IMG/VR virus record: IMGVR_UViG_3300011420_000169
Span: 1 to 31,009 of that record
Strand: one strand, 5' to 3'
DNA: 31,009 bases
Source: a virus
Positions within the stretch are counted from its first letter, which is position 1. Each line of letters begins with the position of its first letter. Below, one piece after another: positions 2,318 through 30,397 of this stretch. The notes under the pieces are model-generated. The model was given only the letters and a program-made list of their open reading frames with translations, was not told the origin of the DNA and searched no databases. The position numbers and the translations under genes are program-made.

Positions 2318-2347
2318 AACTCCCCCCTTCAGAAAGTTATTAAAGGT

Positions 2348-3181: not shown

Positions 3182-3238
3182 CTGACTTATTTTCCTTTTC
3201 GCGCCCTTCTACCCAATGAGACAGAGCCGAATTATTCA

Positions 3239-3257
3239 GGGGGGCCGAAGGCCCCCC
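3239..3257 (-). terminator. GC-rich hairpin, possible partial terminator after the 113-aa gene
   Basis: An 8-bp perfect stem (GGGGGGCC / GGCCCCCC) with a 3-nt loop sits 8 bp after the stop codon of the 113-residue gene and before the start of the 277-residue gene. On the minus strand it is followed by TGAATAATTC, without a U-tract. It could act as a leaky terminator or a 3' stabiliser that keeps capsid-region mRNA abundant relative to downstream genes. Confidence 0.5.
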
Positions 3258-3265
3258 CTACTTGA

Positions 3266-3607
3266 CTAGAGTTTTGCAGTTCCCCAAACGAAGCCATAAA
3301 TAACCCCGCCTGTATGCCCCGAAATGTCCATATCGGTTCCATCCGCAATTGTCAGGACGTTTCCCGAAGCAGTGACCACGGCACCAAGAGCGCCGTTGGA
3401 ATCACCGCCGAGAATTGCACCCGTGCTATCGCTGATCTGAATGACCCAACCATGAATGTCCTTCAACTGTGGAAAGGTCAATGTCATCGACGTGTCATTT
3501 GCCGGTACTGCTTTGAAAGGAATCACCGGAAGCATCGAGCCCACCACTTCAAGTGGAAGGGCCTTGCCGCCACTAACCCCTGTAGGAACAACCGCCGTAA
3601 GAGCCAT
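3266..3607 (-). CDS. Small putative head/decoration protein (113 aa)
   Basis: A 113-residue protein rich in Gly, Val, Thr and Ala. It starts MALTAVVPTGVSGGKALPLE and has no charged clusters, cysteines or membrane segment. Such short beta-rich proteins placed directly after a phage major capsid gene are often capsid stabilisation or decoration proteins, but no specific family is recognised. The ATG at 3607 lies 25 bp after the capsid stop codon, with a GGAGAA Shine-Dalgarno upstream. A GC-rich hairpin follows the stop codon. Confidence 0.75.
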   Translation of the reverse strand: MALTAVVPTGVSGGKALPLEVVGSMLPVIPFKAVPANDTSMTLTFPQLKDIHGWVIQISDSTGAILGGDSNGALGAVVTASGNVLTIADGTDMDISGHTGGVIYGFVWGTAKL

Positions 3608-3632
3608 GCTTTTATTCTCCTTCCCTTATCGA

Positions 3633-4694
3633 CTATTGGTCTGCAACAGCGGAGGCAAACACATGGACAATACCGTTGTCTTCCGGAGTGGATCGGTCAA
3701 AAACGAGCTTTTGAATTCCACGAATTTCGTGAATTTCGTAAGTCCGGTCATGCTGGACATCGCTTTCTTCTTCTCCAAACTTCGAGCGTTGACCCCAACA
3801 CACCGCAGCGGCTTGCGCCCCCAAAAGCATGTTGTGCGAAACGTTGATGCTACTCGCACCCGCGCTTGCTTCAATCAAAAGGCGATCATACTCGTACACA
3901 AGAACACCGTCCCAAGCACCTTTGAAGCGGCTACCGCTGAACAAAGGCGACTCGCTGTTAGCCTGGGGGGGAATGTTCAAGTGAGCATTTCTCCACGAAG
4001 CATCGAAGCGGGTCAAATCACGAACCGAGTAGGTATGACCTTGGAAGGAAAACCATTCCTCGTAGTGCTTTCCGTTCTTCACTCGCATCGGACGAATCTT
4101 AGCAAGTGCCACAACGGGGATAATAGCTTTACGCTTGGCAACTTCGATCATGCCGGTTGTCAACATATCGTTGGTTGAATCGACATTAGCCATCGCCGTC
4201 GCATGGGTGGCATTCCAGTTGCTATCAAGTACGCCGTACAGGTAACGACCACGAACACGCCCCGAGGAAGTGTCGGACAACGCGATAGTAATATCGTCGT
4301 CCAGGTCAACCCGGCCCTCATCCTGAAGGGCTTCCTTCGCCTGTTCCAACACGTCAAATTTGACGCGCTTTTGAGACATAGGAATGTTTTCGATCTTCAC
4401 TAGCCGACGGTAATTGTCGATAGTGATTCTTTGACTGAAAAAGGACACGGTGCCTTCATTACCGATGCCCTTTGCGTTGCCGTCAACGCGTCCGCCAACC
4501 AATCGTCCTCGAATACCGACGGTGATAGCATCGCCGTCCGACTTGGTAAGGTCTTCCTTAACTTGAATAGGCATATCAGAGCCCGTGCCCATGAAATGCT
4601 TCCACGCAAGCTGGCCGATATACTCAGAGAAGATAGACTCTTCCCATTGTTCGACGGTTAGCCCGTGGCCTGTTAGAACTTCAATGTAACTCAC
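3633..4694 (-). CDS. Major capsid protein, N4-gp56 family (DUF4043-like)
   Basis: A 353-residue capsid protein. Family features seen: an N-terminal segment ending LAWKHFMGTGSDMPIQVKEDL, then the phrase GDAITVGIRGRLVGGRVDGN (about 54-73), EGTVSFFSQRITIDNYR (79-95), VFEQ-like helix LEQAKEAL, and a mid-protein AKIRPMRVKNGKHYEEWFSF (about 199-218). The N4-gp56 family forms the HK97-fold shell of several podovirus-like and other tailed phages. The start is GTG at 4694, supported by AGGAGA 8-13 nt upstream. It follows the scaffold gene by 23 bp, the usual scaffold-then-capsid order. Confidence 0.88.
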   Translation of the reverse strand: MSYIEVLTGHGLTVEQWEESIFSEYIGQLAWKHFMGTGSDMPIQVKEDLTKSDGDAITVGIRGRLVGGRVDGNAKGIGNEGTVSFFSQRITIDNYRRLVKIENIPMSQKRVKFDVLEQAKEALQDEGRVDLDDDITIALSDTSSGRVRGRYLYGVLDSNWNATHATAMANVDSTNDMLTTGMIEVAKRKAIIPVVALAKIRPMRVKNGKHYEEWFSFQGHTYSVRDLTRFDASWRNAHLNIPPQANSESPLFSGSRFKGAWDGVLVYEYDRLLIEASAGASSINVSHNMLLGAQAAAVCWGQRSKFGEEESDVQHDRTYEIHEIRGIQKLVFDRSTPEDNGIVHVFASAVADQ

Positions 4695-4717
4695 TGATTT
4701 AGTCTCCTAGTTTTGAA

Positions 4718-5671
4718 TTAACCGAACAGCTTCTTCAGTGGGGTGACTTTCGGTCCGGCCTTTGGCCCGTCACTTCCACTACTGCCGCGAGAAGAAGACA
4801 TACCCTCGACGTTCTCATCTTTTAGTTTCTTGCCTTCACGAATTTCCTCAAGAATCTGTTTCCGGATTTCTTTCTCAAGAGAATCCTTCACTTCCTTACT
4901 AATTGAAGCGTGGATCTTTTCCGGTGTATCTCCGTATTTCCCTTCAAACTTGTGTCGGTTCAAAATACGAAAAGCCGTCAGGACAGGGTTATCAGCGTTC
5001 ATGACCGCGTTTTGAATCATCTCATTCTGACCGAACAGTTGATGAAACTCCCCAAGGAGCCCGTCTACCTGTTCTCTGCCTAGCGATTCATAAGCTGACT
5101 CACGAGCCGCTAAGGCTTTCCCCGCTCTCAATGCCGTCCTGGCGACATCTTCCGGCTGCACCGTCTCTTTACGCTCGTCTTCTTCCGTCCAAGTGCCGTC
5201 TTGCTTTTTGCTCATCACTTCGAGTTGGTGCTTGATCGACTCAAACTCCCTACCCTGATCTGCAAAACGTTGCTGTACCGTGGTGGCGTAGTCTCGCGTA
5301 TCGGAATACCGTTTTTTGTACGGATTTTCTTCAGACTCCCAAGGGTCATCCTTGGCTTTGTCTTCTTTGTTTTCAGAATCGGGCGACGGCTTCTTTTCCG
5401 CATCGTCGTCGGACTCCGACTCCTTAGAATCGACTGGTTTTTTCTGATCCTTTTTTTCAGGGTCCGCCTTTTTATCGGCTTTCTTTTCCTTATCGGGGGA
5501 CGGCTTTTTTTCAGCCTTTTCCGAATCGGAATCCTTTTTCGAATCAGAATCCTTTGCCTTTTTCTTAGGGGTCTCTTCTTTCTCTTCAGTGACGGGTTTC
5601 GGCCCTGCTGAAAAAATCGAATCTAAACTCGTGCGTGGAGCCGTGGGGCTCCCGCTCTCTTTATCTGCCAT
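4718..5671 (-). CDS. Putative head scaffolding protein, highly charged
   Basis: A 317-residue protein with a disordered, very charged N-terminal third (residues 20-115, mostly Lys, Glu, Asp, Ser and Pro). The motif AEKKPSPD occurs twice there. A predicted helical region follows (about 120-270, e.g. RDYATTVQQRFADQGREFESIKHQ), then a Gly/Ser-rich stretch and the basic C-terminus TPLKKLFG. Scaffolding proteins are typically acidic to highly charged, helical, and encoded directly upstream of the major capsid gene, with a basic C-terminal helix that contacts capsid. All of this fits, although no sequence family is recognised. The ATG at 5671 follows GAAGGGAG with 8-nt spacing. Confidence 0.78.
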   Translation of the reverse strand: MADKESGSPTAPRTSLDSIFSAGPKPVTEEKEETPKKKAKDSDSKKDSDSEKAEKKPSPDKEKKADKKADPEKKDQKKPVDSKESESDDDAEKKPSPDSENKEDKAKDDPWESEENPYKKRYSDTRDYATTVQQRFADQGREFESIKHQLEVMSKKQDGTWTEEDERKETVQPEDVARTALRAGKALAARESAYESLGREQVDGLLGEFHQLFGQNEMIQNAVMNADNPVLTAFRILNRHKFEGKYGDTPEKIHASISKEVKDSLEKEIRKQILEEIREGKKLKDENVEGMSSSRGSSGSDGPKAGPKVTPLKKLFG

Positions 5672-5910
5672 TGGTAAAACTCCCTTCAGGATTGTTTGTG
5701 GGAAGGCCGAAAGAACAAGCCAAACTTGTTATCGGGCCGTCACGTTAAACTGAGATGGGAAACTCGCCTCCTAACGGATTACTCCGCCCAAGAATGGAAG
5801 AGGCGAAAACTGTACCCCCGCATAAGCTGCAAGGGCTCTATGTCATGTTTTGCCGGGGGTAATACGGATCATCGCCCCTATAGGTAGGCTCCCCGTATGC
5901 GGCCCCCGAG
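5672..5910 (-). promoter_or_regulatory. Intergenic leader upstream of scaffold/capsid genes with two inverted repeats
   Basis: No convincing gene is present in this 239-bp gap on either strand, which is rare in this compact module. It holds a hairpin at 5705-5738 (inner stem AACAAG/CTTGTT with loop CCAAA, outer stem GGCCGA/TCGGGCC with one bulge) and a wider inverted repeat TCGCCTC (5764-5770) / GAGGCGA (5800-5806). No clear -35/-10 pair was found. It may be a processing site or a late-gene leader. Confidence 0.4.
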
Positions 5911-6516
5911 CTATGTTAAAAACGATGCCCACTCTTTTGAAAAGAGCTTGAGCGACACCGGCTTGATCCAATCGAAATGACCCATATTTGCAAAGTAGCG
6001 CCCGACAACCCGAGAATGGAGTTTCGTCGGACCAACAAGCCCTTGCCGGCCATAAGTAGACTGACTAACAACCTTGTCCGCGTCTGACCAATAAACCAAC
6101 ACGCTATCAAACTGGCCCGAGTATTTTGACCAATCAAACTTTTCATCCATCGTAGTCGCAAGCAGAATAATCCGCTTGAAATGCATCCCCGCTTCAAGCG
6201 CAGCTTGAACAAGGGTGCCCGCATAAGAATGCGCGACGATAGAAAGTGATTCGTCTTTCCCGGTGACGCCTTCAATAAACAGTTCGAAGGATCGGAGATT
6301 CTCAACCACGGATTTGTTGATTGTCCGGCGATACCACGGCAACCAAGTGAACACGCCTACGGCATACTTCCAGAACAACCCGGACCATTGCCAGCTATAC
6401 GCCGCGAAAGGCTGTTTTTGGTCGTCCCAAATTGCCTCAAGACGCGACGGCCAATTACGCTCCTCAGAGCCGCCCGGAATCGTCTCGATACCGTAAAGCA
6501 GAATCACCCTATCCAC
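5911..6516 (-). CDS. Alpha/beta hydrolase (lipase/esterase-like)
   Basis: A 201-residue predicted alpha/beta-hydrolase. Seen: a first beta strand VILLYGI (4-10) before the oxyanion region, a nucleophile elbow AHSYAG (S97) in place of the usual GxSxG, candidate acidic residues in YWSDADKV (D145/D147), and a C-terminal GHFDWI with likely catalytic H180. A Trp-rich region (WSWQW, WLPWY) could form a lid. The start chosen is GTG at 6516, preceded by GAGG, overlapping the end of the 37-aa membrane-protein gene by 13 bp. An in-frame ATG farther upstream (6720) would run through two other genes. Phage hydrolases of this fold can attack outer envelope lipids during lysis. The neighbouring holin-like genes fit that, but the substrate is unknown. 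Confidence 0.75.
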   Translation of the reverse strand: MDRVILLYGIETIPGGSEERNWPSRLEAIWDDQKQPFAAYSWQWSGLFWKYAVGVFTWLPWYRRTINKSVVENLRSFELFIEGVTGKDESLSIVAHSYAGTLVQAALEAGMHFKRIILLATTMDEKFDWSKYSGQFDSVLVYWSDADKVVSQSTYGRQGLVGPTKLHSRVVGRYFANMGHFDWIKPVSLKLFSKEWASFLT

Positions 6517-18913: not shown

Positions 18914-19160
18914 TTTGACGTGAACAAGATGACAGTCATTGTCTACATGAACATGAGCGACCTGCACAACTTCGCCGTTTTTAGTGGTTATTTCGATTTT
19001 GACAGGCTCTTTGACAGGACGACAATCTTGACACCGAAAATTCTTTTCTGTTGTGGTTTCCATAGTTCGACTAACATGGCACTATTTGTACCAAAGCACA
19101 ATAGAGGGGGTACATTGTGTGCCTTGCTATTTTTTTTCGGTAGGGCATTGTCAATACATC
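18914..19160 (+). promoter_or_regulatory. Control region upstream of the small HTH gene and integrase, with repeated TTGACA motifs
   Basis: A 247-bp gap without a convincing gene. Exact direct repeats TTTGACAGG lie at 18998-19006 and 19010-19018, with a third TTGACA at 19028-19033. All are in the -35 sense on the plus strand. A TGTACC/GGTACA inverted pair with a 16-nt spacer lies farther downstream. No strong -10 was found after the TTGACA repeats, so these could be operator sites instead of promoters. Confidence 0.4.
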
Positions 19161-19340
19161 ATGCAACCAGGAACTTTAAAAACCCTTCGGAAAAAAGCGA
19201 AGTTATCTCAAGAAAAGCTTGCTCAAAAACTAGGAGTAGATCGGCGGACGGTGGGACGGTGGGAGCTTGGTCAAGTCAAAATACCGCCAGTTGTAGCGAT
19301 TGCAGTCCGTGCACTTCTGAACAAGTCAAGGCGCGACTAG
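19161..19340 (+). CDS. XRE-family helix-turn-helix regulator (59 aa)
   Basis: A 59-residue Cro-like protein. The HTH region TLRKKAKLSQEKLAQKLGVDRRTVGRWELGQVKIPPV (about 8-44) shows the canonical SQ-LA-LGV-R-TV-RWE spacing. Without the HTH core little remains, so it is likely a dimeric Cro or control protein. The ATG at 19161 is used because the upstream in-frame start at 19053 lies in the control region and yields an unrelated leader. The Shine-Dalgarno is weak, which may mean low translation. The integrase gene begins 39 bp after the stop. Confidence 0.8.
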   Translation: MQPGTLKTLRKKAKLSQEKLAQKLGVDRRTVGRWELGQVKIPPVVAIAVRALLNKSRRD

Positions 19341-19379
19341 CGGATATTTTTCTCCGGTCTGTTGGTATCGGGGGTGCTT

Positions 19380-20449
<1,070 letters not shown>

Positions 20450-20453
<4 letters not shown>

Positions 20454-20668
20454 AGCTTTTATATATAGGGTTGGATGGTGAGAAGTACACGGCGGAGTGG
20501 AAGAGTAACCCCGTCGGTCACTTAAGGGTGTGCAAGGCGGGCTCCCGTAGGGCGGTGATGTCACCGTTCATGAGCCGCACTCAAGCAGAAGAGTTTTTCG
20601 AGCGTATTAAGGGAGACGGCGCAGTGTTAGAAATCCATGACGGGTCTAATGGAAAGGAGAAGCACTAA
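20450..20668 (+). CDS. Small protein at start of replication operon (72 aa)
   Basis: From the ATG at 20450 (AAAGGA upstream, ATGA overlap with int), 72 residues (KLLYIGLDGEKYTAEWKSNPVGHLRVCKAGSRR...). It looks alpha/beta with a beta-rich N-terminus, and its stop overlaps the next ATG. No motif is recognised. It is first in the run of small genes leading into the replication genes. Confidence 0.6.
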
Positions 20669-20853
20669 TGGAAAGATACTTGTTTCTTGTGTCAACGCGA
20701 GAATGGGACGGGGACCGTGAATATTGGAGACAGAGAAACCCGCTGACGGCTAAAAGCTTGGACGATGTAGCTCGTCGGTTGAATGTTCCAATGGCGGACC
20801 TGCGCTTAGACGGAAAGTCACAATACACAAAATTTCCAAAGGAAGGAAAGTAA
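20668..20853 (+). CDS. Small protein (61 aa)
   Basis: A 61-residue protein (ERYLFLVSTREWDGDREYWRQRNPLTAKSLDDVARRLNVPMADLRLDGKSQYTKF). The start overlaps the previous stop by one base (TAATG). The segment SLDDVARRLNVPMADLRL has the look of a short HTH-like helix pair, but the evidence is thin. Function unknown. Confidence 0.6.
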   Translation: MERYLFLVSTREWDGDREYWRQRNPLTAKSLDDVARRLNVPMADLRLDGKSQYTKFPKEGK

Positions 20854-20857
20854 AAAA

Positions 20858-21034
20858 ATGGAAACTGACACTTACACGATCTTGGTTATCTATAACGATG
20901 GTTCGACGGAGCTAATCGAGAAGCTGGACCAACTCGCCTCTATCGCGTGGCTGATTGGGCTACTCAAGATGGAATTGACGGGCTCCGGGTTTCAGTCGAT
21001 TCGCGAATTTCGAATGATCCGCGATAAGAAGTAA
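20858..21034 (+). CDS. Small protein (58 aa)
   Basis: The ATG at 20858, preceded by AAGGAAAG, opens a 58-codon frame (ETDTYTILVIYNDGSTELIEKLDQLASIAWLIGLLKMEL...). It is a mixed beta/alpha protein with an amphipathic helix. No recognised family. It follows the previous stop by 4 bp. Confidence 0.55.
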   Translation: METDTYTILVIYNDGSTELIEKLDQLASIAWLIGLLKMELTGSGFQSIREFRMIRDKK

Positions 21035-21163
21035 ACAAAACAAAAGTGCCGCGTGGTGTGGAACTGGCGGACAGAACTAAACCGAAATGAGAAATCGGAG
21101 AATGGAATCTTGGAGAGGCGGCGGAGATATTAACAACAATACCGGAAAGGCAAAACGGAGAAC

Positions 21164-21379
21164 ATGGAAAACTATACCGCGCTCGTTGAGTATGTGAAAT
21201 CTCTTCAACACAAAACAGAAGCATTGATCGAGGAAGCCCGACGGCGGATTGTGTGCGGTGCGTTGCATTCTTTAGAAACACTCTGCGATATGATCGATTT
21301 TCACTTAGGTTTGCTGGCGAAGGTGCGAGACTATTTGCTTGTAAGGTGCGTGGCTGACGATGCTGTAACCCTACACTAA
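21164..21379 (+). CDS. Small helical protein (71 aa)
   Basis: A 71-residue, mostly helical protein (ENYTALVEYVKSLQHKTEALIEEARRRIVCGALHSLETLCDMIDFHLGLLAKV...). The ATG is preceded by ACGGAGAAC. The 129 bp before it hold no convincing gene. No motif is recognised; the composition suggests a helical bundle or dimer. Confidence 0.55.
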   Translation: MENYTALVEYVKSLQHKTEALIEEARRRIVCGALHSLETLCDMIDFHLGLLAKVRDYLLVRCVADDAVTLH

Positions 21380-21431
21380 AACGGTGTTTGTTGGGTATAA
21401 GCTTATAACTTTAACTAAAGGGGGTAAGTAT

Positions 21432-21950
21432 ATGGAAATAGGGCTAAATTGCAAGGCACAAACGTCGTTTGATGGTCAAAACCCGGCACTTGGCATACAT
21501 ATATTAGAGGGTGTGGACATGGATTTTGACCGAATCGAAAGGCGGCAGAAAAAGAAAATGCAGGCGGTTTATCAACCACCAATTGAGCTTAGGAATTTCG
21601 TCACCCGTGATCGGCAGGCGGTCTTGTCCGGGCTGAAAGACGAGGAGTTTGACGCAATGCTTCACTTCTCGGATAAGGCTTACAACGGGCCGGTTGCTTT
21701 GCGAATCGATGACTTTCCGATGGAGTTTAAGGCTGACGTGTGGCGGGCCTTGCTCCAATTCAATAAGCCTCAACAGAAATTTCTCCTTAATGTCCTAGTA
21801 AAAGGTATGGCTATCGAATTGGCAGCTAAGCTTACAAAGCGGAGTAAGTCGCATTGGCAGGATTGGCTAACTAAGATTGCCCTTCCGGCCTTAAGGGAGA
21901 GCCTTAAGGATTACTGCATTGATGGGAAGTTGGTGCTTCGTGGCAAGTAA
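21432..21950 (+). CDS. Protein with C-terminal helix-turn-helix-like segment (172 aa)
   Basis: The ATG at 21432 is chosen because AAGGGGG lies 8-14 nt upstream; an earlier in-frame ATG (21384) has no clear site. The C-terminal segment QQKFLLNVLVKGMAIELAAKLTKRSKSHWQDWLTKIALPALRESLKDY (about 117-165) resembles a sigma region 4/HTH-type helix set with a basic recognition helix, suggesting DNA binding. The remainder is unrecognised. Possible transcription or replication regulator. Confidence 0.6.
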   Translation: MEIGLNCKAQTSFDGQNPALGIHILEGVDMDFDRIERRQKKKMQAVYQPPIELRNFVTRDRQAVLSGLKDEEFDAMLHFSDKAYNGPVALRIDDFPMEFKADVWRALLQFNKPQQKFLLNVLVKGMAIELAAKLTKRSKSHWQDWLTKIALPALRESLKDYCIDGKLVLRGK

Positions 21951-22110
21951 GACTGACGTAACGGCACGAGCCGCTGAGAAGATCAAGCGGAAGTATTTCG
22001 GGGAGTGCGGGCACGAAGTCTACCCCGTCCTTGTCTCTGGTATGCGCGGGTCGGCCCTTATGGGGTGGCATTGCGAGACCTGTAAGGTTAGAGTGAAGAA
22101 GGTAAAATAA
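21940..22110 (+). CDS. Small zinc-ribbon protein (56 aa)
   Basis: From a GTG at 21940 (an in-frame ATG at 21922 is possible), 56 residues: VASKTDVTARAAEKIKRKYFGECGHEVYPVLVSGMRGSALMGWHCETCKVRVKKVK. ECGH ... HCETC provides Cys/His/Cys/Cys ligands for a minimal zinc ribbon, with a basic tail, which suggests nucleic-acid binding. It overlaps the end of the preceding gene by 11 bp. Confidence 0.55.
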   Translation: MASKTDVTARAAEKIKRKYFGECGHEVYPVLVSGMRGSALMGWHCETCKVRVKKVK

Positions 22111-22277
22111 TGAAAGAGCTAGGTATCGGACTTTTAGTGCTTGGTGGTTGCTTTCTACTCCCCCATGCAATTATTTATCTTTGTCAATTCGAATGGTTCA
22201 GGTGGGGGGCAATTACGTTTTTGGTCGGACTGCTGGCGTGGATAATCGGAAAGCTTAGATTGTCGGACCTAGCATGA
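22110..22277 (+). CDS. Small two-span membrane protein (55 aa)
   Basis: The ATG at 22110 overlaps the previous stop (TAATG) and opens a 55-codon frame with two hydrophobic helices, LGIGLLVLGGCFLLPHAIIYL (about 4-24) and WGAITFLVGLLAWIIG (about 32-47). Its stop overlaps the primase start (ATGA). It is odd for a replication operon. It might be a membrane tether or a superinfection-exclusion type protein, but there is no evidence either way. Confidence 0.55.
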   Translation: MKELGIGLLVLGGCFLLPHAIIYLCQFEWFRWGAITFLVGLLAWIIGKLRLSDLA

Positions 22278-22918
22278 GCAACTATTACGAGCACGACAGG
22301 GCGGAGAAGAAAGAACGGCATGCCGGACCCCGGCCCCCTATGCCAAAGCCCAATTACGATTATTGTCAGATGATGCACGAGTACCTTGAAGCCAGGAGGC
22401 TATCTTATCATGTCGCACGTGTTAATGGTTGGTATCCTACTACTGCTGTGGATCGTAGCCCACGTATTGTTATTCCTGGCGTTAATCCGCATGGCCTAGC
22501 TTACTATCAGGCGCGGGCAATGGACGACCATAAGATTAGGTATAAGTCCCCCGCTGCTTCAAGGGCTGACAGTATCGTGTTGGTTTATCCGGCTGAGGAC
22601 GGCGCTCGTGATAAGAGTGGGACAGGAGGGGCCGCTATATTCGAAGGCCCTATGGATGCTCTTGCCGCTGCGGGTTTGGAGTGGATCGGTATAGCCTTAA
22701 TGGGTAATGAGCCCCCGGACGGTGTGTTAGCTTACACCGCTTCTATCTGTGACAGTGTGCAAGAAGTCGCGATCTTACCGGACATGGACCACCCCGAAAT
22801 GGGGGGCTATGTCCTTGGCTATCTTGGGACGCGGGGAATCAAGGCGCGGGTTATCATTCCTTCGGAGAAAGACTTCGCGGACATGAGCCCCCGACAAAGA
22901 GAGGAGATATTAGGATGA
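22274..22918 (+). CDS. Toprim-domain primase-like protein
   Basis: A 214-residue protein with a Toprim fold: AIFEGPMDALAAAG (121-134) with catalytic-type E124, and PDMDHPEMGG (169-178) with D170 and D172, matching the E...DxD metal-binding pattern of DnaG/topoisomerase-type enzymes. Upstream, residues 32-100 (CQMMHEYLEARRLSYHVARVNGWYP and RIVIPGVNPHGLAYYQARAMDDHKIRYKS) resemble the RNA-polymerase-basin region of bacterial-type primases. No CHC2 zinc finger is seen, so it is short and lacks the usual template-recognition finger. It likely makes primers for the helicase/polymerase encoded downstream. The ATG overlaps the previous stop (ATGA). Confidence 0.82.
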   Translation: MSNYYEHDRAEKKERHAGPRPPMPKPNYDYCQMMHEYLEARRLSYHVARVNGWYPTTAVDRSPRIVIPGVNPHGLAYYQARAMDDHKIRYKSPAASRADSIVLVYPAEDGARDKSGTGGAAIFEGPMDALAAAGLEWIGIALMGNEPPDGVLAYTASICDSVQEVAILPDMDHPEMGGYVLGYLGTRGIKARVIIPSEKDFADMSPRQREEILG

Positions 22919-23109
22919 GACTATTAAATTGGTTGGGCTTCGTGATAATGACTAAAGCTCAATTTAAAATGTACTTGGATGAGGCATATTGGGAAGGCCA
23001 CGATGACGGTTGGATCGGGGGGAAAGATGAAGGCTACGAAGAAGGCTTCCAAAACGGTCAAGAAACCCAGTCTCAAGAAAATCAGTTTGACGAAGGAACC
23101 GCTATCTAA
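22915..23109 (+). CDS. Small acidic protein (64 aa)
   Basis: A 64-residue protein (RLLNWLGFVIMTKAQFKMYLDEAYWEGHDDGWIGGKDEGYEEGFQNGQETQSQ) with repeated Gly/Asp/Glu and Tyr/Glu-Gly segments (DDGWIGGKDEGYEEGFQNG). Its start overlaps the primase stop (ATGA), and its last 83 bp overlap the UDG-like gene in another frame. The unusual overlap makes one of the two starts worth testing. Function unknown. Confidence 0.55.
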   Translation: MRLLNWLGFVIMTKAQFKMYLDEAYWEGHDDGWIGGKDEGYEEGFQNGQETQSQENQFDEGTAI

Positions 23110-23509
23110 TGCAGGGTCCGAGCGTTGGGCATGTCAGGAGTGCGGGCTGTATACGGGTGAGCCTAGTCGTCCGCAGGTCCCCGAGGATTGGACTGGAAAG
23201 CTGCTGATTGTTGGAGACAATGGAAACCTTACTGGACGAGCTTTTTCACTTCTTCGTAAGCTCTGGCGGAGCGTGGGATATACGGATAGCGACGTTGCTT
23301 GCTTTAGCTCTGTGCGTTGCAGCGGACCAAAGGCCGCGAACATGAATCAGGTCCGCGCTTGCAGGCCGTTTTTGCTGACCGTTCTAGCTAAGCTTAATCC
23401 TAAATTTGTATTAGCTGCGGGCGCAACAGCTTTCCGGGCGATCAAGAATGACGGGTCTATAAACATCACAAGGAACCGGGGAAAGCAATTGAAAGTGGAG
23501 GGTCTATGA
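23027..23509 (+). CDS. Uracil-DNA glycosylase-superfamily protein, N-terminal part (C-terminal motif encoded in the polymerase gene)
   Basis: From the ATG at 23027 (GGGGGGAAAG upstream), 160 residues. A Lys-rich N-terminus comes first (2-24), then family 4-type UDG features: iron-sulfur-like cysteines C36/C39 (WACQECG) and C98/C112 (VRCSGPKAANMNQVRAC), IVGDNGN (61-67) in place of the active-site GEGPG motif, and FVLAAGATAF (127-136). The frame stops right after RGKQLKVEGL, just where family members continue with the conserved strand leading to the HPS motif. That part is found at the start of the polymerase ORF at 23870 (KVYATYDPASVL). The domain may lack glycosylase activity, as G-E and H residues are replaced. 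An alternative longer start is at 22979. Confidence 0.75.
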   Translation: MKATKKASKTVKKPSLKKISLTKEPLSNAGSERWACQECGLYTGEPSRPQVPEDWTGKLLIVGDNGNLTGRAFSLLRKLWRSVGYTDSDVACFSSVRCSGPKAANMNQVRACRPFLLTVLAKLNPKFVLAAGATAFRAIKNDGSINITRNRGKQLKVEGL

Positions 23510-23712
23510 GTAATAGGGAGACTTCGGTTACGGTTATGATTGTTCCTGCGAAGGGGGGTATTAAGGGCCGTAGTTATTTAGTTAAGATCAGGGATGAGCA
23601 ATTTTTGTTCGACAGTTGGGAAGCCCTTCATTTCGCAAGTCAACTCATTGACGCGGTATCGCATCAACATGCCGATGGGAGGTACGGTCCCCATGAAGAA
23701 GGTAGCCGATGA
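23506..23712 (+). CDS. Small protein within the UDG/polymerase interruption (68 aa)
   Basis: A 68-residue protein (SNRETSVTVMIVPAKGGIKGRSYLVKIRDEQFLFDSWEALHFASQLI...). The ATG overlaps the UDG-like stop (ATGA), with GGAGG upstream. It is alpha/beta, compact and unrecognised, and its composition is normal for neighbouring phage genes, so it looks like a real gene rather than intron sequence. It overlaps the next small gene by 4 bp. Confidence 0.6.
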   Translation: MSNRETSVTVMIVPAKGGIKGRSYLVKIRDEQFLFDSWEALHFASQLIDAVSHQHADGRYGPHEEGSR

Positions 23713-23873
23713 GTAACACGGATATCATCGCGAAGCTAATCGCACAAGCAGAACTAACTGAACAGTTTCTCGTAGAGGGCCGCTGTGGATATGAAGTCGA
23801 AATTATGATGGACAACCAGAGGGCAATCATGACGGCCATGATTCGACTACTCCGGGCTCTGGAGACGGTTTGA
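23709..23873 (+). CDS. Small helical protein within the UDG/polymerase interruption (54 aa)
   Basis: The ATG at 23709, with GAAGG upstream, opens a 54-codon frame (SNTDIIAKLIAQAELTEQFLVEGRCGYEVEIMMDNQRAIMTAMIRLLRALETV). It is mostly helical with an acidic centre. Both this and the preceding gene start MSN. Its TGA stop overlaps the TTG start of the polymerase (TTGA), so translation is coupled to the polymerase. Function unknown. Confidence 0.55.
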   Translation: MSNTDIIAKLIAQAELTEQFLVEGRCGYEVEIMMDNQRAIMTAMIRLLRALETV

Positions 23874-25873
23874 AAGTCTACGCCACTTATGACCCCGCGT
23901 CGGTACTGAAAGGGGGGTATGAATTTGAGAAGAGAATTATTGAGGATCTCGGACGATTTACAACGCGTCAATTGCGCAGTCCCGTTGCCGGTTCGCCTAG
24001 TGGAAATTCAACAGTGTTGGGATTTGACACTGAGTATTCAGCGACGGGTGAGTTACTTACAGTCGGCTTTGCAGACGCAAATCAATCAAGAGCTATTGAG
24101 ACAAGTGGAAAGTGGCAAGCAGAAGCCAAGAAAATCCTCAAGTCGGCGCAAGTAATCTGCGGGCATTCTGTGGAGGGAGACCTTGATTACCTTGTCAAAA
24201 ACAAACTCTGCTTGGAAAAGTGGTTACGAGGAAAGGATGTTTACGATTCTTTTCTCCTTGCTCGAATGGTGGATGAAAACCGGGGGCGTGGTGGATACAA
24301 TCTACAGTCCCTCCTCTTATCCGAGTGTAACTTTTCGGAGTGGAAGTCTGAGACAGAAGCGCTTCTTAAAAAAACTAATAACGCGGCTGATTGGACGCCG
24401 GATCAAAGGACAGAGCGTTGTAGACTCGACGCTTGGGCTACCCGAATCCTTTGTGAACGATTCGCCCCACAAATCGACAAAGAGTTGTACTCGTTCACGG
24501 CCTCTATCGCAATGTCCCTGCACCGCGTCGGCCTTGCAGGGGCAGCAATTAACCTTCGTCTTTTTCACAAGCTCGGACGGGGCTGGAAACAAGAAGCCGA
24601 GCGACTCCGACAAAAGATAACCCGCTATGCTCATTCTAAAGGAGTGTCCGAGTTTGTCCCCACTAAGGATGACCATCTGCGGGAAATTCTCTATAAGAAG
24701 CTTCACTATCCCGTATTGTCGAAAACTGAAAAGGGCGGGCTTCCTCAAGTTAATAAAGCAACTCTCCAAAAGATCATAGCGGACTGTGAAGGCAATCATG
24801 TTTTTATCAAATATCTTCTTGAATTTAACAAAGTCGATAAGCTTGCATCGACTTGGTATGGTTCAGAAATGGAAGGCCGTAAGAAATCGGTCGGAGAGCT
24901 TATTCAAAACATACCGGGAAGTCCCAATCTTGGCTTGCTGCACTTCTGGATATACTCTTTACGTGCTCGAACTGGCAGACGGGCGTCAGGTGGCGGTGAG
25001 GAGGGCGACCCTGAAAGTCGAAATTCTCAGAACTGGCCTCCTGCTGCGCGTAAAGTTGTCGTTTCACGATGGAAGAACGGGAAAATTGCTATTTGCGACT
25101 TCACAAGACTTGAAGTGGTGCTCATGGGTTGGAGAGCCGGTGATGAAAAGCTGCTTGACTATTTTCTTAATGGGTCTGGTTATATCGGGGTGGCTAAGGA
25201 GTTTTGGGGGCAGGATGTTAAGGAAGGGACTCCCTTATATAAGGGCACTAAGAGCTTAGTGTTAGGCTTAGACTATAACATGGGGTGGTATAAGCTCGCT
25301 CTTGATTTGTGGAACAAGGCCGGACTGCGGTTATCGGAGGATTGGAATGAGCATTGCGCGGAAACGAAAAGGGTCCGTAAACGCTACCTTGCGATGTTTT
25401 CGGGTCTGCGAAGGTATATCAGAGACAGAATTACAGAAGTCACTGACACGCAACAGGTCGTTTCTCCTAGCGGAAGGATACGTCATTTGTCCCACCACGG
25501 GCCGGACAGCGAAGGGTTCTGGCATATTCGAAACGCTGCGGTCAATCAACCTATTCAAAGCTTTGCGTCGGACGTTACAGGGGGTGCGGTAATTGATTAT
25601 GAAGCTGCATTATTACGTGAGCATAATCTTAGTTATCTTGACTGGCATCGGGCTCTTTCCAATACGCCTTGGGACCCTCCTTGTTCTCCTGTTTTTAACG
25701 AGGTACACGATGAGCTTGATTTGGATCTACACCCAAAAAGCGGGAAAAGAGACTTGGAAATATTGGTAGATTGCATGGAGAACGTGCGGTCACTCAAAAA
25801 GCTTGTGCCTGGATTTGATCTTAAGCTTAAGGTTGACGTTAAGGTTCGAAAGGATTGGTGTGGGAATGGATAA
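23870..25873 (+). CDS. Family A DNA polymerase with 3'-5' exonuclease domain and an N-terminal UDG-like remnant
   Basis: A 667-residue polymerase starting with TTG at 23870 (GGAG upstream). The first ~30 residues (KVYATYDPASVLKGG...RIIEDLGRF) are not polymerase-like. They match the C-terminal motif of family 4 UDGs, where HPS would be (here YDPAS). Exonuclease: D53/E55 (VLGFDTEYS), ICGHSVEGDLDYL with D104, and RCRLDAWAT with D187. Polymerase: motif A CDFTRLE with D410, motif B-type TKSLVLGLDYNMG with K461, NAAVNQPIQSFASD, and motif C VHDELD (H613 D614 E615). All key acids are present, so it should be active. It is encoded after the primase and before the nuclease and helicase, as a T7-like replication set. 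Confidence 0.92.
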   Translation: MKVYATYDPASVLKGGYEFEKRIIEDLGRFTTRQLRSPVAGSPSGNSTVLGFDTEYSATGELLTVGFADANQSRAIETSGKWQAEAKKILKSAQVICGHSVEGDLDYLVKNKLCLEKWLRGKDVYDSFLLARMVDENRGRGGYNLQSLLLSECNFSEWKSETEALLKKTNNAADWTPDQRTERCRLDAWATRILCERFAPQIDKELYSFTASIAMSLHRVGLAGAAINLRLFHKLGRGWKQEAERLRQKITRYAHSKGVSEFVPTKDDHLREILYKKLHYPVLSKTEKGGLPQVNKATLQKIIADCEGNHVFIKYLLEFNKVDKLASTWYGSEMEGRKKSVGELIQNIPGSPNLGLLHFWIYSLRARTGRRASGGGEEGDPESRNSQNWPPAARKVVVSRWKNGKIAICDFTRLEVVLMGWRAGDEKLLDYFLNGSGYIGVAKEFWGQDVKEGTPLYKGTKSLVLGLDYNMGWYKLALDLWNKAGLRLSEDWNEHCAETKRVRKRYLAMFSGLRRYIRDRITEVTDTQQVVSPSGRIRHLSHHGPDSEGFWHIRNAAVNQPIQSFASDVTGGAVIDYEAALLREHNLSYLDWHRALSNTPWDPPCSPVFNEVHDELDLDLHPKSGKRDLEILVDCMENVRSLKKLVPGFDLKLKVDVKVRKDWCGNG

Positions 25874-26030
25874 TAGACTGGAAGCTTATACCCTCGCGTT
25901 GCAAGATATACAGTATATCATGAAGCAATACGAACAGTATAAGCCTGAGGCGTGGGTAACTGTAAGGAAGATTGTCGCGGGGGCCTTACACCCGCATAAG
26001 ATCAAGAAGGGAGATAAGCAAGATGCCTAG
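25866..26030 (+). CDS. Small protein (54 aa)
   Basis: From the ATG at 25866, overlapping the end of the polymerase by 8 bp, 54 residues (DNRLEAYTLALQDIQYIMKQYEQYKPEAWVTVRKIVAGALHPHKIKKGDKQDA). Helical with a basic C-terminus. No family is recognised. Its stop lies after the ATG of the next gene (8-bp overlap), so this segment is tightly coupled. Confidence 0.55.
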   Translation: MDNRLEAYTLALQDIQYIMKQYEQYKPEAWVTVRKIVAGALHPHKIKKGDKQDA

Positions 26031-26460
26031 AGGAAGTAGTAGGCCGTCAATGTTCATCGCATTTTCGGCCAAGGTCCGGGAAGGTAAATACGTTAAGGGT
26101 CCTTCGGTCGGACTGTGGCCCCGCGATACAGGTCCGGAGGCCGGGGGCTCACTCAAGGGTGAATACCTGGAGCAACTGGTTGAGTTTCTAAACAAGGCTT
26201 GCGACAAGGGCAGCGACGTGTCCGTGGCGCTGTTCAAGGGTAGCAAGAAATTCGGCAAACGTCAGGATGAGGAAGACGAAGAGGGCGATGATGATGATGA
26301 TGAGGAAGAGGAAGAGGAAAAGCCTTCCCGCAGTCGTCGCAGTAAAAAAGAAGACGAAGACGAAGAGGACGAGGACGAAAAGCCCCGTCGTGGCAGCAAA
26401 GGGAAAGCGGCTAGTAAAGGGAAAGGCAAGAAAAAAGACGATTGGGGATTTGACGATTAG
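26023..26460 (+). CDS. Acidic-tailed protein, possible ssDNA-binding-like (145 aa)
   Basis: The ATG at 26023, with AAGGGAG upstream, gives 145 residues. Residues 1-75 form a compact beta-type region (FIAFSAKVREGKYVKGPSVGLWPRD...LVEFLNKACDKGSDVSVALFKG). The rest is low-complexity Asp/Glu (82-97) alternating with Lys/Arg/Ser, ending KKKDDWGFDD. An acidic tail with a terminal aromatic is typical of single-stranded DNA-binding proteins such as T7 gp2.5 and T4 gp32, where it recruits partners. The place next to the polymerase fits. Sequence homology is not evident, so the call is tentative. Confidence 0.5.
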   Translation: MPRGSSRPSMFIAFSAKVREGKYVKGPSVGLWPRDTGPEAGGSLKGEYLEQLVEFLNKACDKGSDVSVALFKGSKKFGKRQDEEDEEGDDDDDEEEEEEKPSRSRRSKKEDEDEEDEDEKPRRGSKGKAASKGKGKKKDDWGFDD

Positions 26461-26597
26461 AATCACGGCCCCTCATTTTTGTGCCGGACTATCTGTTGAA
26501 CGGGGGTTTGTTGTTGAGGCGGCCCCTGTTCTTCGGTGGTTCGAAGGGGCTCCGGTGTGTCTGGTTAAATTTATTTGCAAAAAAAGGAGATGGGAAT

Positions 26598-27029
26598 ATG
26601 AAGAGACGACTACTTTCTAAAAAAGAAGTGACCCTAGACAATATCGAGAAAGAGGGAACCGAGATTGAGAATCTTCGTGGTTTGCGAAACATGTATGGAC
26701 ACGCCTGCGACACTAGCGACGGGGGGTGTGTGGTGTATGTGCCGGACGTGTCGGTGGAGTTTTTGAAAGAGGAGGAGGCCGACGACAACGAAGCGGAGTC
26801 CGCGAAGAAGGAGAAGAAGGCCCCTACCCCCGCGTCGTTATCGTCTGCTGCTGCTGATTTATCAAATAATTACGAAGCCGTTTCGCTTCTGCCAATAGTG
26901 GCCGCTATGAAAAAGAATCATTATTGGGGCACTGTGGCCGGTATAGTTCAAGAAGAGGACGGAGAGGGTGGCACCTTAATTTTCATTCCCAATGTCACCC
27001 CGGTAGAGTTGGGATTGGAAGAAGAGTAG
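26598..27029 (+). CDS. Hypothetical protein with acidic linker (143 aa)
   Basis: The ATG at 26598 is preferred over upstream starts because AAAGGAGATGGG precedes it. 143 residues: a basic N-terminus (KRRLLSKKEVTLDNIEKEG), two similar beta-type segments (GGCVVYVPDVSVEFLKEE and GGTLIFIPNVTPVELGLEE), and a charged linker (ADDNEAESAKKEKKAP) between them. The near-repeat of the V-IP-V-P-EL motif suggests an internal duplication. The 137-bp gap before it is empty. Function unknown. Confidence 0.6.
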   Translation: MKRRLLSKKEVTLDNIEKEGTEIENLRGLRNMYGHACDTSDGGCVVYVPDVSVEFLKEEEADDNEAESAKKEKKAPTPASLSSAAADLSNNYEAVSLLPIVAAMKKNHYWGTVAGIVQEEDGEGGTLIFIPNVTPVELGLEEE

Positions 27030-27032
27030 AGC

Positions 27033-27761
27033 ATGCGGGTCACACGGTCAAAAAAAATGGAAGCGTGGGCTTTGAAGAAAATCAAAGCTCACCTTGAATC
27101 ACGGCCAAGATCGGACAAGGGGTGGCATGTGTCCGATTTGCTCTATGCTCGTAAAACCTTCTGGCGGAAGCTGGACCCCAAGCCTATGACCGATGAAGAG
27201 GCTTTATATTTCGTTGCGGGCCACGGCCACCATAACATTCTTGAGGCGTGCCTTGGGAAGTACGAGAAGAACAACCGTAGCGATGCAGGTGAGTTTGAAA
27301 AGCACGGTATCTTTTTTTCACCGGATATGCGGATGAAGAACTTTACTCTTGAAATTAAGACTAGCAGGGCAAGGAAGATTACGGCGGATGTCCGCGAACC
27401 TATCGATGTTTATGATGGCTATCTTAAGCAGGAGAATAGCTATCAGTCACTCATGAAGCAAGACCGGGGAGCACTGCTTGTGCTGTTTTTGAATGCAGTT
27501 AAGGATGAGGTTAAGGAGAGTTGGAAAACTCGCCCGCAGCTTCGGTGCTATAAGATTCTCATGGACGCAAAGGAGCGTAAAAAGCATTTAACGTGGCTCT
27601 TTTCAACAGCGAAGAGTCTCACTGAGGCTGTGAAGACAAAGAAGTGTGGTAAGCTTCCACTTTGCCCCATATGGCTCTGTAAGGATTGTGTGTGGTTCGC
27701 GAAGTGTAAGCCTTGGCTTATGGACCCCAAGCGAAAGAACCTACAAGAAGGGCGGGCATGA
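27033..27761 (+). CDS. PD-(D/E)XK nuclease, Cas4/RecB-like with Fe-S cysteines
   Basis: A 242-residue nuclease. Active-site motifs: AGHGHHNIL (H66 region), D98 (SPDM), E107-x-K109 in FTLEIKTS and the helix ENSYQSLMKQ, as in Cas4/RecB-type exonucleases. A C-terminal cysteine cluster (C205, C211, C216, C219, C225 in KKCGKLPLCPIWLCKDCVWFAKC) would hold a 4Fe-4S cluster. It probably trims DNA ends in replication or recombination. It lies between the acidic-tail protein and the helicase, overlapping the helicase by ATGA. No CRISPR genes are nearby, so it is not a CRISPR adaptation gene here. Confidence 0.82.
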   Translation: MRVTRSKKMEAWALKKIKAHLESRPRSDKGWHVSDLLYARKTFWRKLDPKPMTDEEALYFVAGHGHHNILEACLGKYEKNNRSDAGEFEKHGIFFSPDMRMKNFTLEIKTSRARKITADVREPIDVYDGYLKQENSYQSLMKQDRGALLVLFLNAVKDEVKESWKTRPQLRCYKILMDAKERKKHLTWLFSTAKSLTEAVKTKKCGKLPLCPIWLCKDCVWFAKCKPWLMDPKRKNLQEGRA

Positions 27762-28888
27762 AAAAGATAAGGCTTGCCGAAGAACTTGAACAAAACTTGC
27801 TTCAAGCCGCTCGGTTGGGAGTAATCCCAATCGAAGACTTGGACCCCGAGGAGTTCAGCAAAAAAGCAAAGGCGGTTTACCTTGCAATCAATCATCTATT
27901 TAAAAAGCGCGTCCCCCCGCCACTTAAGGTTGAATCTATCCAACTTGCGGCTTCGTCTTTGTTGGGTATTCCGAAGGGCTCTGTTACGCGTTACCTTGCG
28001 GATATTAGCTCGACTGATCCCGGCGCTGAGGTACGAACTATTCTTCGATCTGCCCGCGAAAAGTCGCTACTCGTATCTTTGCTTAACGAAGCTGGTTCGC
28101 AACTCGCAACAGGGGACCTTAGACTTTCTGATCTCGGACGTTTGATCGATAAAGGGGTGGGCAGTGGCGATCCCATTAAATCATTCTCAAGCCAAGTCGT
28201 TGATAAGTTTCCCGTGCCTCCTAAAGGCTTCTCCCTCGGTAGTCTCAAGAAGATTTCAGAAATTACTAACGGGCTGTTTGGTATATGGGTTATCGGGGGA
28301 GAGCCTGGCCTTGGCAAGTCTACCCTTTCATTTCAAATCGCGCTCGACGTTGCGAAGAACCACCCCGTTGCGTATTACGATCTTGACGGCACTGGCGAAG
28401 CCTATGTCCTCGACCGAGCACGACAGATATTTCGAAACAATGTCAAAGATTTTAAGCGAAGCACTAACCAGTTTTACTTTCGTCCGTCTATCGTTTCGCT
28501 GGAAAGCGATCTAGCTTTCCTGAAGCCCCCGGCATTACTCGTGCTGGACAGCGTGCAGACGCTACCGACAAGCATTAAGTATAGCAAACAGTCTTTGGAT
28601 GATTGGCTCAAACGGTTTAAGGGTATCGCTCAAAAGGGGTTCGCTATCCTACTGGTTAGTGAGAAGGCACGGTCGGAATACGGAGAGGCGAACTTGAGTG
28701 GTTACAAGGGGTCCGGTGATATCGAGTACGCGGGAACAATGTGTGTGCAGCTTCTTGAAGATCCCGACGACAACGAGCTTGTTCAGTTTCACATAATGAA
28801 AAATCGTCACGGGCGAGATAAGGGACATATCACGAACCTTGAACGTGATGACAAACGAGTGTTTTGGTTTGAGGAGGTTGGAAAATGA
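27758..28888 (+). CDS. Replicative DnaB-like helicase / RecA-fold ATPase
   Basis: A 376-residue protein. An N-terminal helical region (1-150) precedes a RecA-fold ATPase with Walker A GEPGLGKS (181-188), Walker B LLVLDS (260-265) and later sensor-like segments (ILLVSEKARSEYG, 298-309; HIMKNRHGRDKG, 345-356). The arrangement fits DnaB/RadA-like ring helicases that unwind the fork and partner with the upstream primase and polymerase. It lacks a zinc finger. The ATG at 27758 overlaps the nuclease stop and its end overlaps the next gene by ATGA. A RadA-type recombination role is an alternative. Confidence 0.85.
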   Translation: MKKIRLAEELEQNLLQAARLGVIPIEDLDPEEFSKKAKAVYLAINHLFKKRVPPPLKVESIQLAASSLLGIPKGSVTRYLADISSTDPGAEVRTILRSAREKSLLVSLLNEAGSQLATGDLRLSDLGRLIDKGVGSGDPIKSFSSQVVDKFPVPPKGFSLGSLKKISEITNGLFGIWVIGGEPGLGKSTLSFQIALDVAKNHPVAYYDLDGTGEAYVLDRARQIFRNNVKDFKRSTNQFYFRPSIVSLESDLAFLKPPALLVLDSVQTLPTSIKYSKQSLDDWLKRFKGIAQKGFAILLVSEKARSEYGEANLSGYKGSGDIEYAGTMCVQLLEDPDDNELVQFHIMKNRHGRDKGHITNLERDDKRVFWFEEVGK

Positions 28889-29136
28889 TTAACTTTAAAC
28901 GGTCCGGTAAAACGGTTGAAATTACGGTTGACCTTGAAGTGCCTGGGATGGGAATGCGGGTTTGGACGTTTAGTTGGAATGCCACCTCTGACGAGTATGC
29001 GGCTTTCCTTGCGGAAGACATGCGCTTAGCTATGTTTAAGAGGCTTAAAGTGATTCGTGAAAAGGCATATGAATATGGATGGAAAGACGTAAAGGCTAAA
29101 AACACTAAACGTACTTGGTTTGAGGGGTGGTGGTAA
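28885..29136 (+). CDS. Small protein (83 aa)
   Basis: An 83-residue protein (INFKRSGKTVEITVDLEVPGMGMRVWTFSWNATSDEYAAFLAEDMRLAMFKRLKVIREKAYEYGWKD...). It has a beta-strand N-terminal half and a charged helical C-terminal half ending TWFEGWW. The ATG overlaps the helicase stop. No known family. It sits between helicase and HNH genes. Confidence 0.6.
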   Translation: MINFKRSGKTVEITVDLEVPGMGMRVWTFSWNATSDEYAAFLAEDMRLAMFKRLKVIREKAYEYGWKDVKAKNTKRTWFEGWW

Positions 29137-29137
29137 G

Positions 29138-29527
29138 ATGAAGGAAATCAATTTCAAAACGTGGTTGACCTGGACGCTTCGGAAAGCGTCTTACCGCTGG
29201 CCTCCTCGGTTGCAAGCGTTAACGAATGCGCAGATTTCCAAGCCCGAGTTTAGCCGAAATCCGGGCGAGACAGTGACGCTTCGTGTGCGAAACTTTTACC
29301 GCTGCGCTCATTGTAAGCTCGGATTTTCTCGTAAGGGCGTGTCCATCGATCATATTGAGCCAGTTGTGGACCCTAAGAAAGGTTGGCAGGGGTGGGAAGA
29401 GTATGTGACTCGGATGTTCTGTCAGGTGGGCGGGTTTCAGATAATCTGTGGAAAGTGCCATGACAAAAAAACACTCAAAGAAACCAAAGTCAGAACGAAG
29501 AGTAAAGCTTCCCGACGCGCCGCCTAA
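29138..29527 (+). CDS. HNH endonuclease-like protein (129 aa)
   Basis: A 129-residue protein with an HNH nuclease core: RCAHCKLGF (C56, C59), SIDHIEPVV with D71-H72 (general base), and IICGKCHDKKT (C104, C107, H108). The two CxxC knuckles plus D-H and a terminal H match HNH enzymes. The ATG at 29138 follows GAGGGG. It may be a free-standing homing-type or packaging-associated nuclease; its place in the replication operon points to the first. The next gene overlaps its last 68 bp. Confidence 0.8.
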   Translation: MKEINFKTWLTWTLRKASYRWPPRLQALTNAQISKPEFSRNPGETVTLRVRNFYRCAHCKLGFSRKGVSIDHIEPVVDPKKGWQGWEEYVTRMFCQVGGFQIICGKCHDKKTLKETKVRTKSKASRRAA

Positions 29528-29702
29528 CGTGGCGCGGGATATCGTCACTGTGCTTCGGGCCTTCTCGAATCACATGCACGAACAGCTTAACTTTCCCCCG
29601 CACAAGGGGGACAAAGATAAGGAGGAAAGGCTTATAGCCTTAAACTGTTGGCGGGCGCAACTTGAGAGTGTGTTGGAACAAAGAAGGGGAGAGAAGGAGT
29701 AA
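29460..29702 (+). CDS. Small basic protein (80 aa)
   Basis: The ATG at 29460 (GGAAAG upstream) gives 80 residues with a basic N-terminus (TKKHSKKPKSERRVKLPDAPP) and an amphipathic helical C-terminus (LNCWRAQLESVLEQRRGEKE). An in-frame GTG at 29448 is possible but less favourable. The overlap of 68 bp with the HNH gene makes coupled translation likely. Function unknown. Confidence 0.55.
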   Translation: MTKKHSKKPKSERRVKLPDAPPNVARDIVTVLRAFSNHMHEQLNFPPHKGDKDKEERLIALNCWRAQLESVLEQRRGEKE

Positions 29703-29704
29703 TA

Positions 29705-30397
29705 GTGAAAACTAAGCTACCATTAAGATTTGAAAGGATAACGTCGAAGAGGGTCCGCAACGACCAACTTCACGAAAACCCTTTACATGACCCAAAAGCG
29801 GACCGTGAAGAGGCTATCAAAGATCAAAAGGCTTTGGCGGATACCTTGGGTGTTTGGTCCGTGGGTTTCCTCGATATCGAGACAACCGGCCTAGGGGCGG
29901 ACTTCGGGCATGTACTTTGCGCTTGCATTAAGCCGATGGTAAGCGCTGACATGATTACCCTCAGAATCGATGACTACAAGGGGTATAAAAAAGAACTGTG
30001 TAACGACAAGGCGCTTGTCCTAGCGATTAAAGAACAGATTGCTAAGTTCGACGTGCTTGTGCATTACAACGGCGATCAATTCGACTTGCCCTTTATCGAC
30101 ACTCGACTTGCGATTCATGGTGAGAGACGTGCTCCGCTCGTACATTCGATTGACCTTCTTCCCATTGTCAAAAAGAAGTTGCGCCTTCACTCGAATCGGC
30201 TGGATACCGTTGCAACGGCTTTGGGGTTGGTCCATCAAAAAACAAAGCTCGATCCTCAAGTGTGGCAGCGAGCGTCCCACGGTAGCAAGGCGGATCTCGA
30301 TTATATTGTGGAGCACTGTGAAGCGGACGTGTACGTTTTAGAAGAAACCTTTAAGCGGCTAAAGGACTACATTGACTCGATCTTTCGAAGACGTTAA
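29705..30397 (+). CDS. DEDD-family 3'-5' exonuclease (RNase-H-like, 230 aa)
   Basis: A 230-residue exonuclease starting at GTG 29705. DEDD acids are visible: D57/E59 (VGFLDIETTGLG), D127 in LVHYNGDQFDLPFIDTRL (119-135) and D208 in HCEADVYVLEETF (204-216). These resemble the RNase_H_2/YprB-type exonuclease family. It is separate from the proofreading domain already present in the polymerase, so it may act in DNA or RNA primer processing. The TTG start of the next HNH gene overlaps its end by 26 bp. Confidence 0.82.
   Translation: MKTKLPLRFERITSKRVRNDQLHENPLHDPKADREEAIKDQKALADTLGVWSVGFLDIETTGLGADFGHVLCACIKPMVSADMITLRIDDYKGYKKELCNDKALVLAIKEQIAKFDVLVHYNGDQFDLPFIDTRLAIHGERRAPLVHSIDLLPIVKKKLRLHSNRLDTVATALGLVHQKTKLDPQVWQRASHGSKADLDYIVEHCEADVYVLEETFKRLKDYIDSIFRRR

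Follow-up and report, generated by a model that had tools for sequence, protein, structure and literature searches.

The replicase gene of this virus is broken inside its uracil-DNA glycosylase (UDG) domain. In the 31,009-nt stretch analysed here (the window), a separate gene is predicted to encode the N-terminal ~3/4 of a family-4/UdgX-type UDG fold (the N-chain), and the portion absent from it (KVYATYDPASVLKGG...EDLGRF) forms the first ~30 residues of the polymerase ORF (the C-piece), with two small genes, o68 and o54, lying in between (Table 1). Some relatives (given L numbers throughout) carry the gene uncut, another is split at the same position around different small genes (the cargo), and the catalytic motif A of the UDG is lost from the window. 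The original prediction, that a gene insertion split a fused UDG-polymerase gene, is thus supported by both the uncut relatives and the UDG-homologous N-terminus of the polymerase. The three domains do not share one polypeptide in the window, the N-chain being separate, and all parts are homologous to one-ORF replicases.

Table 1. Predicted features of the split replicase locus, and the gaps between exonuclease and polymerase genes in relatives
Feature	Genome	Position	Strand	Remarks
UDG N-chain	window	23027..23509	+	TGA stop 23507-23509; C-terminal ...NRGKQLKVEGL
Cargo ORF 1 (o68), 68 aa	window	23506..23712	+	ATGA overlap with UDG N-chain
Cargo ORF 2 (o54), 54 aa	window	23709..23873	+	ATGA overlap with o68
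Polymerase ORF	window	23870-25873	+	TTG start; TTGA overlap with o54
UDG C-piece	window	23870..23965	+	Last core strand (TYDP replacing TYHP) and final helix; polymerase N-terminus
3'-5' exonuclease domain	window	23966..24475	+	GFDTEY ... GHSVEGDLD ... RCRLDAW; Pfam PF01612 0.0033, below cut-off
Family-A DNA polymerase domain	window	24476..25873	+	CDFTRLE ... LGLDYNMG ... VHDEL; Pfam PF00476 5e-28
Exo/pol gap	L002	4605-4986
Exo/pol gap	L003	717-1448
Exo/pol gap	L004	4608-4820
Exo/pol gap	L005	190-880
Exo/pol gap	L017	4602-5170

The N-chain matches Pfam PF03167 (UDG; 2.6e-8) over profile positions 9-101 of 141 only, and its cut edge falls at the hairpin turn ahead of the strand bearing the HP motif. 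Against PDB profiles it matches 1vk2/1l9g at 2e-11. Its AF2 model (pLDDT 75.5) matches UdgX and family-4 UDGs (Foldseek E 4e-5) and adopts the UDG superfamily fold, aligning to 6ioc over 132 residues (VIA Z 10.7, rmsd 3.2). Among the structure matches is also 9qhs (phiLo), a phage polymerase of known structure that includes a UDG-like part (VIA Z 7.1); our literature search found no paper on it. Four Fe-S-type cysteines (CQEC = CxxCGL, VRC, RAC) are present in the alignment, a pattern consistent with a putative 4Fe-4S cluster, and are kept in five of the six N-chains aligned, L004 having lost one. The N-chain thereby shares both fold and four-cysteine pattern with family-4 UDGs and UdgX (Thermotoga maritima 1vk2, Thermus thermophilus 1ui0, Mycobacterium smegmatis UdgX 6ioc); those proteins are single-chain and active, whereas the domain in the window is split and lacks motif A. 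An alternative start, an upstream ATG at 22979, is possible for the N-chain ORF. A 64-aa ORF in another frame (22915-23109) overlaps its start at 23027 by 83 nt, and a similar acidic DEGYxDGYEDGY repeat protein (3444-3590) overlaps the UDG start of L017.

Membership of the polymerase in family A is indicated by its Pfam match and by the motifs read in the sequence (Table 1), and its model (pLDDT 84.7) matches Bst/Taq Pol I (Foldseek E 3e-21). The exonuclease domain that precedes it is a separate ORF in some relatives (P0003-P0005). Residues 2-32 of the polymerase ORF align to residues 169-196 of the one-ORF protein of L031 (QAWATYAPRAVLLGGSSYLPRIKEDFER) and to residues 196-223 of that of L033 (FVTYHPAAVLRGALPLRQRILDDLKRFT); with 2000 shuffles per relative, 0/2000 reached the score in either case, and the UDG homology proposed for the first 30 residues is confirmed. 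Pairwise shuffling of the window's 31 residues against distant one-ORF replicases gives a weak signal, though the multiple alignment lines them up alike. Searched against PDB profiles by itself, the 33-residue C-piece returned nothing, being too short a query. P9, G15, E20, I23, D26 and R29 of the C-piece are retained in all seven sequences.

One-ORF relatives at the same position were found, as the original prediction would have it. The UDG, exonuclease and polymerase occupy one 811-aa ORF in L031 (IMGVR 3300045996_001342) and one 856-aa ORF in L032/L033 (3300023212_000345, 3300023213_000167), L031 and L033 being the closest intact relatives found. On L031, the UDG ORF of the window maps to 1813-2247 and its polymerase ORF to 2257-4185 (40% identity), in the same frame with a 9-nt gap; on L033, the corresponding positions are 3488-3976 and 4001-5968, again in frame, with a gap of 24 nt. 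Moreover, the Pfam UDG match of L033 is contiguous (8-140 of 141) and runs through the C-piece, whereas that of the window breaks off short of it. In a multiple alignment, PMBT14, Serbin, ctfzr933, Lebethron and KimJongPhill provide further one-ORF outgroups with the same domain order. A scan of 84,980 bacterial and archaeal genomes found no relative, and hence no host or prophage.

The genes around the replicase also recur. The window gene at 22274-22918 has a counterpart upstream of the UDG in the relatives covering that region, L031 and L033 included; it appears toprim-like by eye (EGPMDALAAAG ... PDMD) and has no match in Pfam. The ORF at 25972-26460, possibly a single-strand-binding protein, has a long acidic tail ending DDWGFDD, and counterparts follow the polymerase in L002 and L003. 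In L024, L025, L026 and L028, the one-ORF UDG-exonuclease-polymerase adjoins thymidylate synthase, dCMP/cytidine deaminase, pyrophosphohydrolase or dUTPase, and in L026 a pyrimidine hydroxymethylase is also near; these neighbors suggest a link with modified pyrimidines.

The ORF ends, the ATGA/TTGA overlaps and the GGT triplets at 23501-23503 and 23867-23869 all lie where they had been placed, though a 3-nt repeat carries no weight. Re-reading of the coordinates likewise puts the N-chain and polymerase ORFs in the same frame, with a 366-nt interval between them. This interval had been described as frame-preserving: the shared frame is real but uninformative, because each 4-nt stop/start overlap (ATGA/ATGA/TTGA) shifts the frame by -1 and the three sum to zero, which makes the interval a multiple of three. 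Frame preservation thus gives no reason to invoke splicing or bypass. An intron, intein-like element or translational bypass restoring a fused protein, which the original prediction had itself ranked lower, would fit the shared frame and the seamless protein obtained by exact removal of 23504-23869, but we regard it as very improbable. An Rfam search of 23300-24100 yielded no group I/II or other RNA at E<=5, and the window and L009 yielded none at the gathering cut-off. The interval is filled by two ORFs with Shine-Dalgarno (SD)-like sequences, is replaced by ~780 unrelated nt at the same site in L009, and is missing altogether from relatives whose halves overlap; its length is far above the 50 nt of the T4 gene 60 bypass, and its divisibility by three is already explained.

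Both cargo genes match only the identical contig, and o54 has no convincing relative. In Pfam and PHROG, o68 has no match and o54 only weak ones; neither matches a nuclease family there, which gives no indication of a homing endonuclease. The search for homologs of the 68- and 54-aa ORFs thus came back empty, leaving them as orphan genes. An apparent relative of o68 in L038 was discarded as a chance match in the wrong frame, inside a tail-like gene. L009 (3300014885_000008), whose polymerase ORF is 63% identical to that of the window and likewise retains the exonuclease-polymerase fusion, is split at the same point (...EVPGV* / polymerase from MKTYVSFDP) around four other small genes, a difference that speaks against one mobile element common to both. 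The cargo of the window, of L009 and of the relatives with overlapping halves is mutually unrelated. The metagenomic origin of these records might raise the suspicion that an intact gene was split by assembly or sequencing error; we give this practically no credence, since a second IMG/VR record has the identical interval, which reads as clean coding sequence, and independent metagenomes show the split at that site too (L009) or overlapping halves (L002, L003, L004, L017, L019). The second record, 3300011430_000004 (48,897 bp), is a longer copy of the virus, identical to window positions 19027-30370 over the parts compared.

The original prediction did not foresee further split states, nor did it attribute the divisibility by three to the overlaps. 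In L002, L003, L004, L017 and L019 there is no interval: the UDG ORF overlaps, in the +1 frame, an ORF that carries the C-piece, and TYHP is kept. Moreover, the exonuclease and polymerase are separate ORFs in L002, L003, L004, L005 and L017, with 1-3 small genes between them (Table 1); this cargo includes a conserved ~70-aa protein (PCWMDEWALGYFCALRD) and a small membrane protein. L005 and L019 belong to one record (IMGVR_UViG_3300006854_000011), in which both contig ends cut the exonuclease gene, and this genome is probably circular or circularly permuted.

Separate translation of the two pieces is favored, judging from the start signals. SD-like sequences precede the o68 start (GGAGGG upstream of its ATG) and the polymerase TTG. 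In 5/5 overlap-group genomes, an in-frame ATG with a GAG(G)-type SD upstream is available to the second ORF; random synonymous recoding, run on four of them, produces such a combination of open ATG and SD-like site only 2-12% of the time per genome (the genomes are not independent). The usage of AGG arginine codons, as a source of SD-like sequence, is not rare enough alone to serve as an argument. A programmed +1 frameshift could still yield a fused UDG-exonuclease in these five genomes, the second ORF lying in the +1 frame in every one; were one base skipped at the stop, L004 (CCA GGA CTA TAG G) would yield PGL-RCYATYHP and L019 (CAA GGC TAA A) QG-KAFGTYHP. However, L002, L003 and L017 have no stop there, and no slippery run is common to the group, for which reason we dropped the frameshift as a shared mechanism. 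CUA to UAU and GGC to GCU would be expected to re-pair poorly. Chance would seldom provide the ATG and SD that the second ORF has, and with the halves far apart in the window and L009, fusion is evidently not needed. We therefore rate frameshifting as improbable.

The polymerase tree separates the split genomes, as one clade (97/99), from L031/L033 and recovers a further clade for the overlap group (90/89); it is compatible with the window and L009 being sisters as well as not. Known UDGs are single-chain folds; a split in mid-fold is thus unlikely to be ancestral, which argues for fission rather than late fusion. In the window, L009 and L004 the N-chain stop follows PG(L/V) or EGL directly, and that of L019 comes one residue sooner; this similarity favors one ancestral break. 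In the UDG tree L009 lies nearer the fused relatives, and the trees are compatible with fission having occurred once or twice. A single insertion event may account for the present arrangement, and a frameshift fission before the arrival of the cargo fits as well.

The uracil-excision active site has apparently degenerated in the window. Motif A (GEAPGADEDQRTGRPFTGRSG; GEAPGxxED, with the catalytic acid) is intact among near relatives only in L033, which also retains TYHP. L031 has a decayed motif A (VLGSAPNSDERQ) and TYAP; the motif is deleted or degenerate in L002, L004 and the window, and largely deleted in the latter two. The HPS/HPA motif B sits on the polymerase ORF and not on the N-chain, and its histidine has become aspartate in the window (YDP) and L009 (FDP). 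Since motif A is lost but the Fe-S cysteines are mostly kept, the domain has probably stayed in the replicase to bind DNA or to serve its structure. The pieces could instead be inert remnants of a domain that died and then broke, leaving the polymerase N-terminus vestigial, as the deletion of motif A, the HP to DP change and the L004 cysteine loss would suggest. We consider this unlikely, although less so than a frameshift: the N-chain ORF is open in every split genome in which the region is complete, at 40-50% identity, with NIT..RGK invariant and most cysteines kept, and a dead fragment at such divergence would be expected to be lost or riddled with stops. The six invariant C-piece residues point the same way.

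We therefore favor, as the probable account of the whole, fission followed by separate translation and docking into an inactive accessory subunit. An ancestral three-domain replicase gene (UDG-like, 3'-5' exonuclease and family-A polymerase) would have broken at the turn of the hairpin that leads into the HP-motif strand, the front becoming its own gene and the back remaining as the polymerase N-terminus, and in the window two unrelated small genes would then have come to lie between them. All four ORFs would share one message, with translation passing between them by stop/start-coupled initiation. The N-chain may dock onto the ~30-residue C-piece, rebuilding a catalytically dead, Fe-S-bearing UDG fold that would hold DNA or template beside the polymerase. 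Both cut edges are of low confidence when modeled alone (the last 18 residues of the N-chain, 143-160, have pLDDT <50; polymerase residues 1-20 have pLDDT ~60, and KVYATYDP forms no strand), which is suggestive at most of their pairing with each other, since chain ends are often low. The H to D change and the L004 cysteine loss count against this account, and drift toward a remnant is possible. More tentatively, and at somewhat less than even chances, the dead fold would be a detachable DNA-binding subunit of a family-A replicase, assembled from two chains by strand complementation, with the relatives showing how one replicase gene broke up step by step at two different domain borders.

UDG-exonuclease-polymerase A replicases have been described in phages, e.g. 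Pseudomonas phage PaBG gp205 (PMC7412058). The window's replicase has direct one-ORF sequence relatives among them, including those of PMBT14, Serbin and ctfzr933, with the same three domains in the same order; there they form one polypeptide, whereas here two genes share the UDG, foreign genes lie between them and the active-site motif is lost. Split genes are known from T4-like phages, i.e. 43A/43B of phages 25 and 44RR, nrdA of Aeh1 and topoisomerase 60/39, and the 43A/43B and nrdA pieces have been shown to form working enzymes (PMC2988022). In both settings a contiguous phage gene has become separate cistrons with foreign DNA between; in the T4-like phages this DNA encodes a homing endonuclease or goes untranslated, whereas here it consists of small orphan genes that vary among relatives. 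The 43A/43B polymerase is also of family B, whereas that of the window is of family A and the cut lies within the accessory UDG fold. Vaccinia D4 UDG doubles as a polymerase processivity factor (PMC10253040, PMC11142717), which offers a functional analogy only, of a UDG fold serving a replicase beyond base excision; D4 is an active single chain from an unrelated virus with an unrelated polymerase family. A literature search limited to open-licence papers, and weak for that reason, turned up no account of a UDG domain divided across two genes of a phage. What the window joins is a UDG-exonuclease-polymerase fusion and a split phage gene, cut inside the UDG fold, with changing non-endonuclease cargo.

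Gene callers would label the N-chain a stand-alone 'uracil-DNA glycosylase', a label that is probably wrong. Overall, the relatives form a natural gene-fission series, from an active-looking fused form (L033) through a decayed fused form (L031) and overlapping +1 halves with exonuclease and polymerase apart (L004, L005/L019, L002, L003, L017) to halves parted by cargo (the window and L009). This series makes it testable whether a domain cut inside its fold still serves, and what role the UDG-like domain plays in phage polymerases after the loss of uracil excision.
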